Both the position numbers and the translations under genes were made by a program. Below are positions 25,263 to 58,455 of a stretch of DNA of 64,000 bases, piece after piece. Within the stretch, counting starts at the first letter, position 1. Every line of letters begins with the position of its first letter. Source of the DNA: Pedobacter sp. Leaf250 (GTDB taxonomy: Bacteria; Bacteroidota; Bacteroidia; Sphingobacteriales; Sphingobacteriaceae); contig NZ_CAKLBU010000021.1 of assembly GCF_920984735.1 (NCBI RefSeq), positions 1 through 64,000 on the forward strand, read 5' to 3'. The notes beneath the pieces are model-generated. The model was not told where the DNA came from. It did not search any database and worked only from the letters and a program-made list of their open reading frames with translations.

Positions 25263-25347
25263 GGAAAAAATGGAAGATGTAAGATGTAAAACGGAATTCT
25301 TGGTTTTGTGCATTTAAAACGTAAATAGATTTAGAATTTTGGCCAAC

Positions 25348-25478
25348 CTAAACCCGATAGAAATGAAAATATTTTTTTTTTGCGATAATAGTTATCCGAT
25401 GAATATATGCAATATGCCGATATTCATCGGATAACTTTAAGTATCCTCAAAAATATTGTAATAAATAGCGGGGCTGAA
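25348..25478 (+). repeat. Conserved-ends element, copy a (with 17-bp inner palindrome)
   Basis: The left end CCTAAACCCGATAGAAATGA starts at 25347 and the right end TAGCGGGGCTG finishes at 25476, giving an element of about 128 bases. The interior holds a perfect 17-bp inverted repeat (25390-25406 and 25420-25436, loop 13 bases) with arm sequence AGTTATCCGATGAATAT. Two more copies with the same ends but other interiors lie at 30817-30888 and 45022-45084, both in the opposite orientation. The 390-base gap 25251-25640 contains nothing else that I recognise besides promoters. Confidence 0.6.
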
Positions 25479-25624
25479 CAAACCGACCGTCACTGTATTT
25501 GCTTTTCTAAAAATTTTTGACCCATCTAAGATACTTCAGAACGTTTGAGCTCAATGTTTTGCATTCAAAATCTTAAAATCAAATAATCATTAAAATCCTA
25601 GTCAAATCCTTTTACCTTATTTAT

Positions 25625-54773: not shown

Positions 54774-55448
54774 ATGAATATATTGTTAGTAGAAGATGAG
54801 CCAAATGTGGTTTCAGTAATTTCAAGAGGTTTAAGTGATGAAGGTTTTACAGTAAGTGTTGCACCCGATGGTTTAATCGGCAAGCAATTGGCAGCAGAAA
54901 ATCAGTTCGACTTAATAATTCTCGATATTATGCTTCCCGGTATAAATGGATTGGAGCTTTGCAAAATCATAAAGGCTGAAACGCCAAATGTGCCCATCAT
55001 TATGCTTACTGCTTTGGGCACTACCGAAAATGTGGTTAATGGATTGGATAATGGTGCTGATGATTACCTGATTAAACCCTTCAAATTTGCCGAACTTTTC
55101 GCCAGAATTAGAATGTTACTTCGCAGGTATAATGGCGCTGCCAATTTAGACCAGGTAATTAACATTGCTGATTTACAGATAAACCTAAGTGCCAAAACAG
55201 TAAAGCGAAACAATAAGGAAATTATATTAACAGCCACAGAGTACCGCTTGCTGGAGTTTATGGCAAAAAACAAATCAAAAATTCTATCTCGTATTGATAT
55301 ATTAGAAAGTGTATGGGATATCGATTTTAATTTAGGCACTAATGTGGTAGATGTATATGTAAACTACCTTCGCAAAAAAATAGATAAAAATGCCGATCAA
55401 AAACTCATTCATACTGCCGTAGGTTTGGGCTATGTTTTAAAAGGCTAA
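54774..55448 (+). CDS. OmpR-type response regulator
   Basis: From the ATG at 54774 the protein has 224 residues. Receiver domain: acidic pair ED (residues 8-9), phosphoacceptor D51 in LIILDIMLPG, conserved T in MLTALG, and K in YLIKPF. A C-terminal winged helix DNA-binding domain follows (LLEFMAKNKSKILSR ... VVDVYVNYLRKKI ... GLGYVLKG). The kinase gene begins 3 bases after the stop. Its likely DNA site is discussed at 56915-56947. A TTG at 54765 is an alternative start. Confidence 0.95.
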   Translation: MNILLVEDEPNVVSVISRGLSDEGFTVSVAPDGLIGKQLAAENQFDLIILDIMLPGINGLELCKIIKAETPNVPIIMLTALGTTENVVNGLDNGADDYLIKPFKFAELFARIRMLLRRYNGAANLDQVINIADLQINLSAKTVKRNNKEIILTATEYRLLEFMAKNKSKILSRIDILESVWDIDFNLGTNVVDVYVNYLRKKIDKNADQKLIHTAVGLGYVLKG

Positions 55449-55451
55449 ACA

Positions 55452-56810
55452 ATGAATATCGCCAAAAAAATCACTTTATTATTTGCCATACTTTCGGCAG
55501 TGATCATCCTATTATTAAGCGGTTTTGTGTGGTATTTTTCAAACGAATTTGCATTCGAAGATTTTTATAAACGATTGGAAGCTCGGGTTAACATAGCTGC
55601 TCAAATAAAATTGTATGAAGATGATAACAATAAGGTTTATGCAAAAATGCGAAACCAATATTTAGAGCGTTTAGCATCAGAACGAGAATTTATTATCGAA
55701 GCTGGCAAAACAGAAAATAAATTAGACCGAGAATTGCCCTCAAGCTTTTACAACAGGATAAATTCTGGTTTCATGGCAAGATACCGTGTCGAAAATCATT
55801 TTTACGCCGGTAAGTTATTTAAGAGTGGCAATAAAAAGTATATCGTTATTATCTCTGCCAATGATCCTTTTGGCTTTAGAGAATTAAAAGATCTTCAGCG
55901 AACGCTGATTATTGGATTTTTTCTGTCTATCATATTATCATTTATTGTAGGCTGGAAATTCTCCAATTATATGCTGATGCCCTTGCGAAACATTATCTCT
56001 AGCGTAAAAAGGATAAAAGCCGAAAACTTACACATGCGTTTGGAAGTTAAAAAAGGCACTGATGAAATAGCGCAATTGGCACAAACCTTTAATAACATGC
56101 TCAATCGGCTGGAAACTGCTTTTGAGACACAGAATAATTTCATTAGCAATGCATCTCACGAGCTCAGAACCCCACTTACAGTAATTAGCGGAGAAGTAGA
56201 ATTGGCCATGCGGGCGAATACCGATCCGCAAAAACAACATTTTGCCCTTGGAAAAATTAAAGATGAGGCGGAAAGATTGGAAAATATTATCACCAGTTTG
56301 CTGGGCTTGGCACAATCCGGTTTCAATGGAAAAAATCAACCGTGGGAACTTGTAAGAATGGATGAACTGCTTTGGGAAATTAAAGCTTCGGTACATCAGG
56401 TTCATCCGGAAAGCAAAATAGAGATAGATTTTTCCAAACTTCCTGATGATGATGAATTATTGAATTTAAAAATAAATAAAAACCTAATTAAACTTGCTCT
56501 TACGAATATTGTAAGCAACGCATGCAAATATTCGAATGATAAGCTGGTTAATATCGCAATAGAAACAAGTGCAAATTCTTTATCAATTGCAGTAACAGAT
56601 CAAGGCATTGGAATTCCACAAACGGACATTCAACATATTTTTGAACCGTTTTACAGAGCTTCAAACACAAATGCTTTTAAAGGTTATGGCATTGGTTTAC
56701 CCTTATCGCTTAACATCATCAGATTACACCGGGGAAGCATTGCCATCAAATCGCAGGAAGGAAAAGGAACTGAGATAAAAGTTCTGTTGCCATTAACAAG
56801 TATTTACTAA
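55452..56810 (+). CDS. Sensor histidine kinase with HAMP domain
   Basis: The 452-residue protein has two transmembrane helices (about residues 8-28 and 155-175) around a 125-residue periplasmic sensor, then a HAMP linker, the dimerisation/phosphoacceptor helix with H236 in ISNASHELRTPLTVISG, and the ATPase domain with the N box (LTNIVSNACKYS), G1 (VTDQGIGIP) and G2 (GYGIGLPLS). It should phosphorylate the response regulator just upstream. The stimulus is unknown. Confidence 0.94.
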   Translation: MNIAKKITLLFAILSAVIILLLSGFVWYFSNEFAFEDFYKRLEARVNIAAQIKLYEDDNNKVYAKMRNQYLERLASEREFIIEAGKTENKLDRELPSSFYNRINSGFMARYRVENHFYAGKLFKSGNKKYIVIISANDPFGFRELKDLQRTLIIGFFLSIILSFIVGWKFSNYMLMPLRNIISSVKRIKAENLHMRLEVKKGTDEIAQLAQTFNNMLNRLETAFETQNNFISNASHELRTPLTVISGEVELAMRANTDPQKQHFALGKIKDEAERLENIITSLLGLAQSGFNGKNQPWELVRMDELLWEIKASVHQVHPESKIEIDFSKLPDDDELLNLKINKNLIKLALTNIVSNACKYSNDKLVNIAIETSANSLSIAVTDQGIGIPQTDIQHIFEPFYRASNTNAFKGYGIGLPLSLNIIRLHRGSIAIKSQEGKGTEIKVLLPLTSIY

Positions 56811-56914: not shown

Positions 56915-56947
56915 TTCTAATCCCGTTCTAATCTCATTCTTATGTCG
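56915..56947 (+). promoter_or_regulatory. Three 11-base direct repeats, candidate response-regulator operator
   Basis: TTCTAATCCCG (56915-56925), TTCTAATCTCA (56926-56936) and TTCTTATGTCG (56937-56947) are in perfect 11-base register. OmpR/PhoB-type regulators bind such 10-11 base direct repeats. The array ends 17 bases before a -7 box, where the -33 element would lie, as in activator-dependent promoters. The neighbouring response regulator is the obvious candidate. Confidence 0.55.
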
Positions 56948-56964
56948 CTGTAATCTTTTCGGGC

Positions 56965-56972
56965 TAAACTTG
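56965..56972 (+). promoter_or_regulatory. -7 promoter element of the Usp-bestrophin operon
   Basis: TAAACTTG matches TAnnTTTG at seven of eight positions, 33 bases before the ATG at 57006. No TTTG -33 element is present; the third 11-base repeat occupies its place. Confidence 0.45.
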
Positions 56973-57528: not shown

Positions 57529-58455
57529 ATGCTGTTACGAAATAATATTCCGCTCACCTATATATTCGGGAAGATAAAAAAAGAAGTACTTTTTGTAATT
57601 GCATATTCCATCGGAATTGTAATTCTTTACCAAAACTTTCACGTTACCCGAATTTCAATTCCGATTACTGTGCCGGCTCTTTTAGGTACAATTATTTCTT
57701 TATTGTTGGCCTTCCGATCAAATCAGGCATACGATAGATGGTGGGAAGCCAGAATTTTGTGGGGAGCAATCGTTAACGATTCCAGATCAATCTCTCGCCA
57801 AATACTATCTTTTGTAGATAATCCTTACGGTTCTGATGAAATTGAAGCCTTTAAAGAAAAATTCATTAAAAGACAAATTGCCTGGGCTTATGCTTTAAGT
57901 CAGGCGTTACGCGGATTTAATCCACGAAAAGGATTGGAACAATATTTATCTGCCGATGAAATGGCTTTTATTAAAAAACGTAAAAATGTAACCACCACAA
58001 TATTGGAATTACATGCTATGGATTTAAAGAAAGCTTTAAATGAAGGTTGGATAAATAAGTATCAGCAAATTGAAATAGACAAGACACTAACTGCATTGTG
58101 TAACCACATGGGTGGCTGTGAACGTATTAAAAACACGGTTTTTCCGGTAACTTACAGCAAATACATCAACATGTCGATACACTTATTTATCGTATTGTTA
58201 CCTTTTGGATTAATCGAATACTTCGGTTATATGGAGGTTCCATTGGTTGTTGCAATTGCGGCTTTCCTTCTTTTGGTAGAGAAAATGGCTGTTCATCTTC
58301 AAGATCCATTTGAGAATAAACCAACCGATACGCCGACAACTACCATTTGCAGAACAATTGAGCGTGATCTGTACCAAATGATTGATGACAATAAAATACT
58401 AGAAGATAAGCCACAAACAGAATTGGCCCAAGTAGGTTCATACTACATCTTATAA
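57529..58455 (+). CDS. Bestrophin family channel protein
   Basis: The 308-residue protein shows the bestrophin-like (UPF0187) pattern: FRSNQAYDRWWEARILWGAIVNDSRSISRQ (about residues 63-92), HMGGCERIKNTVFPVTYSKYI (about 194-214) and an F-E-N-K-P-T-D-T segment near 262-269. Four transmembrane helices are predicted. Bacterial relatives form pentameric ion channels. It is encoded after the Usp-like gene and followed by a terminator. Ion selectivity cannot be read from the sequence. Confidence 0.9.
   Translation: MLLRNNIPLTYIFGKIKKEVLFVIAYSIGIVILYQNFHVTRISIPITVPALLGTIISLLLAFRSNQAYDRWWEARILWGAIVNDSRSISRQILSFVDNPYGSDEIEAFKEKFIKRQIAWAYALSQALRGFNPRKGLEQYLSADEMAFIKKRKNVTTTILELHAMDLKKALNEGWINKYQQIEIDKTLTALCNHMGGCERIKNTVFPVTYSKYINMSIHLFIVLLPFGLIEYFGYMEVPLVVAIAAFLLLVEKMAVHLQDPFENKPTDTPTTTICRTIERDLYQMIDDNKILEDKPQTELAQVGSYYIL

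Follow-up and report, generated by a model that had tools for sequence, protein, structure and literature searches.

A tandem array of four 11-bp direct repeats in Pedobacter sp. Leaf250, located between a two-component gene pair and an operon for a Usp-fold protein and a bestrophin, is very probably the operator of the adjacent OmpR/PhoB-type regulator, which would activate the Usp-bestrophin operon, in an arrangement apparently reused by related regulator-kinase pairs. This reading comes from sequence comparison of a 64,000-nucleotide stretch of DNA (the window) with the rest of the genome and with relatives. The features concerned are as follows.

54774..55448, + strand: OmpR/PhoB-type response regulator, 224 aa (PF00072, 1.5e-30; PF00486, 3.5e-23)
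55452..56810, + strand: sensor histidine kinase, 452 aa (PF00672, PF00512, PF02518)
56915..56925, + strand: array unit 1, TTCTAATCCCG, about -62 to -52; conserved
56926..56936, + strand: array unit 2, TTCTAATCTCA, about -51 to -41; conserved
56937..56947, + strand: array unit 3, TTCTTATGTCG, about -40 to -30, covering position -33; conserved as YTCTTAT
56948..56958, + strand: array unit 4, CTGTAATCTTT, about -29 to -19; conserved (CTRTAAT in Pedobacter, YTNTAAT/CTTAAT elsewhere)
56965..56972, + strand: -7 box, TAAACTTG, 6 bp 3' of unit 4, recognized by the TAnnTTTG consensus (PMC9723704)
57006..57503, + strand: Usp-fold protein, 165 aa (profile and fold matches)
57529..58455, + strand: bestrophin-family ion channel, 308 aa (PF25539, 4.6e-65)

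The array and its neighboring genes

The 195-bp intergenic region from the kinase to the Usp gene contains the succession TTCTAATCCCG TTCTAATCTCA TTCTTATGTCG CTGTAATCTTT TCGGGC TAAACTTG. The initial annotation of this DNA had reported three 11-mers at 56915, 56926, and 56937 and the box at 56965-56972, all of which we found in place, but the array has a fourth unit that it did not list, and the four (56915-56958) share a single phase. It had also put the end of the two-component genes shortly before the array, as is the case, although the distance from the kinase stop at 56810 is 104 bases and not 105. Within the intergenic region, 11 was the best period among 9 to 13, and none of 2,000 shuffles reached an in-phase identity of three units as high as the one observed. 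Using a scoring matrix of 40 positions trained on loci of other species, with the window excluded, the site scored 57.2 bits, while the next best nonoverlapping place in the window had a negative score on the + strand and 0.0 on the - strand. The maximum of the same matrix in 4.8 Mb of Markov sequence was 7.3 bits, and the closest competitor among the loci scored in the same genome (L146) reached 17.3 bits. No RNA element or tRNA was found at the array site.

The regulator consists of a receiver domain, with the conserved phospho-acceptor Asp and Lys (D8, E9, D51, and K101), followed by a winged-helix Trans_reg_C domain, the architecture that defines OmpR/PhoB members, and its recognition helix is T189-NVVDVYVNYLRKK. 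The kinase has two transmembrane helices flanking a small periplasmic domain and then HAMP, HisKA, and HATPase domains. The structure model of its residues 1 to 180 had a pLDDT of 83.9, and the only match below an E value of 0.001 in a fold search with the sensor domain was an integrative model of WalK, which gave no clue to the ligand.

Conservation among bestrophin loci

We collected 80 GTDB loci through their bestrophin, the nearest named ones being those of Pedobacter sp. Leaf41 and MC2016-05, and 74 of them keep the order regulator-kinase-Usp-bestrophin. The array was searched upstream of the Usp gene, or of the bestrophin where no Usp gene was found, and in 75 of 79 loci the best four-unit array exceeded all 60 dinucleotide shuffles. 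By our own reading, the four exceptions are L097, L106, L112, and L115, of which L106 and L115 have units of the TTCTTACC type. The gap between the array and the -7 box was exactly 6 bp in 64 of the 67 measurable loci, Chitinophaga included, and in 35 of these the box is TAAACTTG itself; in the remaining three, all from Mucilaginibacter, the script picked another TTG, and ten further loci did not match the -7 pattern that we applied. The initial annotation had proposed to check whether the repeats are conserved; relatives that share the gene order do retain them, together with their distance from the -7 box. Array and spacing are kept across Pedobacter, Mucilaginibacter, Rufibacter, Rhodocytophaga, and Dyadobacter, with an altered form in Chitinophaga. 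Upstream of the Usp gene of L106, L115, and L117 (Chitinophaga and a Flavihumibacter), there are two blocks with up to about ten TTCTTACC-type units.

A strict-pattern scan of 41 relatives gave roughly one exact site in each Pedobacter genome that had any, mostly at Usp-bestrophin where the context was read, and we therefore rejected a large regulon as the main picture. Autoregulation was rejected as well, since relatives have no array upstream of the regulator gene, except for L097 and L099, in which the regulator-kinase pair is divergent from the target and the array lies upstream of the regulator gene.

Related regulator-kinase pairs and their probable targets

The closest relative of the regulator within the genome belongs to the following pair.

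G000:C1:264500-268800: sister regulator-kinase pair (L165), next-closest own-genome regulator, 43% identity

Directly after its kinase comes CTTTAATCTGC TTTTAATTTCG ATTTAATTCGC ATTTAATTCGG CAAGGA TAGTTTTG, that is, four TTTAAT units with a 6-bp gap to TAGTTTTG, and OEP-HlyD efflux genes come next. When the class was sampled evenly, the kinase was followed by an array at p ≤ 0.01 in 59 of 114 loci that carry a kinase; the other 55 had none at this threshold, which counts against the regulator-operator reading. The genes behind the 59 arrays, assigned by similarity to Pfam-confirmed references, encode RND efflux systems; Usp with DUF1275, SulP, or bestrophin; SulP with Usp/carbonic anhydrase; SLAC1; OprB; or products left unassigned. 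Because sister pairs with arrays precede such varied transport operons, the arrangement is a property of the regulator clade, with the bestrophin as one membrane target among several.

The SulP, SLAC1, and carbonic anhydrase targets suggest an anion or bicarbonate theme. In one locus (L179:2617-5103), the genes behind regulator, kinase, and array encode a SulP transporter and a beta-carbonic anhydrase, a hint of bicarbonate in this branch. SLAC1 (PF03595) follows the regulator-kinase pair in seven loci (L184, L197, L200, L203, L205, L243, and L257), all with TTTTAAT/TTTTAAG units and F198 regulators. A broader proposal, plausible rather than likely, is that this Bacteroidota two-component clade has one promoter code (at least four 11-bp units, 6 bp, and a -7 box) with unrelated transport proteins behind it (bestrophin, SulP, SLAC1, DUF1275, and RND), frequently with a partner of the Usp fold and in one case with a carbonic anhydrase; its non-efflux branch might then form a regulated ion-permeation cassette, possibly serving bicarbonate or pH balance.

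A competitor to an ion-homeostasis device is a metal or general envelope-stress circuit, in which the bestrophin would be one of several stress outputs. The closest curated families of both regulator and kinase are of the heavy-metal type, and CusCBA-like efflux operons follow, and would be controlled by, several sister pairs. However, the best NCBIfam match of the regulator, TIGR01387 (cztR_silR_copR), scored 229 bits, under its cut-off of 279.2 bits, and the kinase scored 188.5 bits with TIGR01386, under the 292.55 bits required; in the alignment of kinase sensor domains, His and Cys are nowhere invariant and Met is not conserved past the start, and SulP, SLAC1, Usp, and carbonic anhydrase account for many sister targets. 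We consider such a circuit a serious contender, if a somewhat doubtful one.

The comparison with the CopR/PcoR/AgrR/CusR regulators themselves is similarly divided. They make up the best-scoring curated family, the sister pairs precede RND efflux operons, and unit 4 (CTGTAAT) resembles their TGTAAT half-site. On the other hand, AgrR, CopR, and PcoR are reported to bind the inverted repeat ATTACA-N4-TGTAAT (PMC7380067), which also counts against the regulator-operator reading, while the window operator has direct repeats only. We rejected a CopR/CusR identity of the regulator on both grounds, the score under the cut-off and the direct instead of inverted repeats.

A weaker array, TTCTAATCTCA TTTTAATTTCT TTCTTT (17.3 bits; G000:C18:90151-90178; L146, L308), lies upstream of a TonB-receptor-like gene in the genome of the window. 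Three other Pedobacter genomes (G474:C5:38701, G492:C1:193417, and G218:C587:2961) have an identical or almost identical array, in the last of them likewise upstream of a TonB-receptor-like gene. There is no clear -7 box at a 6-bp gap. It may be a second target, either of the same regulator or of a sister.

Promoter position and proposed mechanism

The -7 box of the window was described initially as imperfect, and it does have one mismatch to the TAnnTTTG of Bacteroidota sigma-A promoters; exact matches occur in sister loci (e.g., TAGCTTTG and TAGTTTTG). Since the -7 box has been mapped at -12 to -5 in Flavobacterium psychrophilum (PMC9723704), the array would span about -62 to -19. With this numbering, position -33 falls inside unit 3 and there is no TTTG there, in agreement with the earlier suggestion that the units stand in for the -33 element.

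We propose that the kinase senses an envelope signal and phosphorylates the regulator, as expected from their families. The phosphorylated regulator would bind the four units head to tail, each with a 7-bp contact and a 4-bp spacer as in Mycobacterium tuberculosis PhoP, so that a tandem tetramer would cover the -33 region and end 6 bp from the -7 box. From this position, we infer activation: the bound regulator would recruit RNA polymerase and switch on Usp-bestrophin, as a class II activator of the PhoB kind. Related pairs across the class would use the same arrangement for other transport operons.

PhoB is the obvious point of comparison. Its pho box consists of tandem 11-bp direct repeats that stand in for the -35 element near a -10 box. 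The window likewise has an OmpR/PhoB-type regulator and 11-bp direct repeats that overlap -33 close to the -7 box. It differs in the unit (TTCTAAT-N4 versus the TGTCA type of PhoB), in having four units at a fixed 6-bp gap from a Bacteroidota -7 box, and in the Usp-bestrophin target, and the regulator is under the cut-offs of the NCBIfam PhoB models, both Bacteroides-type (NF053854, 177.7 versus 270) and proteobacterial (TIGR02154, 200.6 versus 296.2). By analogy, then, the mechanism is presumably that of a PhoB/PhoP-type tandem-repeat activator, a kind already known.

The regulator could instead bind the array and repress by covering the -33 region until a signal relieves it. The units overlap the core promoter, and OmpR-family regulators can do both, depending on position (PMC7380067). 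However, the promoter has no recognizable -33 element, and a fixed 6-bp gap is expected for contact with polymerase and is not needed for repression, which makes repression improbable.

Evidence linking the array to the regulator

Three observations support, at the level of sequence, a tie between the array and this regulator family. The first is that the three bestrophin paralogues of the genome (L162-L164) have no array, with best scores of -12 to -20. The second is a natural separation of regulator and target: in Mucilaginibacter UR6-1, ~76 kb of the same contig separate the regulator-kinase pair from Usp-bestrophin, and the array is upstream of Usp-bestrophin, with none near the distant pair. 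In Rhodocytophaga, a second Usp-bestrophin copy, without an adjacent regulator-kinase pair, also has the array.

The third is covariation between the units and the recognition helix. M. tuberculosis PhoP binds 7-bp motifs 4 bp apart, also in arrays of three and four units; its Asn212 makes contact with four central bases, and its Tyr220 forms a hydrogen bond to a C (PMC4832192). In our alignment of the helices, these residues correspond to N190 and Y198 of the window regulator. PhoP differs in its motif (TCACAGC) and its targets, and is a distant homologue. Among 92 loci, an average of 71% of units had C at position 3 with Y198 regulators, and 4% with F198 (Fisher p of 9e-12 for Y198 versus non-Y, uncorrected for kinship). 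Residue 198 changed at least seven times on a tree built without the helix, with no independent pair in the opposite direction; phylogeny-corrected sign tests were not significant, with few independent changes or supported pairs. TACC units accompanied K190 in 7 of 7 loci and N190 in 0 of 95, but this is a single change on the tree, and we rejected it as repeated evidence. The initial annotation had linked the array to the OmpR-type regulator, and the covariation, together with the case of a regulator apart from its target, strengthens that link. Its wider reading, in which kinase and regulator switch on Usp-bestrophin, is likewise supported, with binding and activation as predicted steps.

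Two loci (L093 and L103) keep the array without an adjacent regulator, as would be seen if another DNA-binding protein used the array and the adjacency of the regulator were a coincidence. Yet both genomes hold a close regulator elsewhere, the unit sequence covaries with the helix residues, and regulators of the same genome outside the clade (L151-L156) lack an array of this kind in the stretch retrieved, so that we regard use by another protein as highly unlikely. Chance repetition in AT-rich intergenic DNA is hardly tenable: the units are short and AT-rich, but they score far above shuffles, and their spacing is conserved across families, which refutes it.

The weaker matches in the own genome (L004, L005, L008, and others) were discarded as coding DNA, wrongly oriented, or of very low score. 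At L008 (G000:C25:37218), two TTCTAAT units in inverse orientation lie 8 bp before a small ORF preceding a SulP gene, probably by chance.

The Usp-fold protein and the bestrophin

The bestrophin scored 220.4 with PF25539, against a cut-off of 27, and phmmer matched it to the structures of KpBest from Klebsiella (4wd7, 6.6e-32), with homology over nearly the full length. KpBest, the one well-studied bacterial bestrophin, is reported to be cation selective (PMC6342527), and for this reason we do not assert anion selectivity for the window protein, characterized here by its sequence.

Its partner had been labeled Usp-like, and both profile and fold uphold this. The protein alone gave no Pfam match, while 13 of 31 aligned relatives matched PF00582, and a profile search recovered PDB entries 2dum and 1mjh. 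The model (pLDDT of 81.3) matched Usp proteins in Foldseek, including TeaD (3hgm), and given TM-scores of about 0.4 to 0.5 we classify it, from the modeled fold, as a divergent Usp member. The ATP motif G-2x-G-9x-G(S/T) is absent from it; this motif defines only the ATP-binding subgroup. Like TeaD, the Usp of the Halomonas TeaABC transporter, it is encoded with a transport system, but it lacks the canonical ATP motif and its partner is a channel, not a TRAP transporter.

In the literature searched, which left most subscription journals outside, we found no two-component system for a bestrophin and no description of this array, and nothing relevant on bestrophins with two-component systems or Usp; the target operon and the clade-wide arrangement thus appear undescribed there, a provisional claim of novelty. 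The cellular role of bacterial bestrophins is poorly known, and this system makes it testable, having its own dedicated sensor, one strong operator in each genome, and a partner with the Usp fold. If true, the ion-permeation cassette would give them a physiological context. The pairing of residue 198 with unit base 3, and of residue 190 with TACC units, would be a simple protein-DNA code from which the targets of many uncharacterized Bacteroidota two-component systems could be predicted.

Elsewhere in the window, positions 25346-25479 matched the Flavo-1 RNA slightly over the Rfam gathering score (42.7 versus 42).
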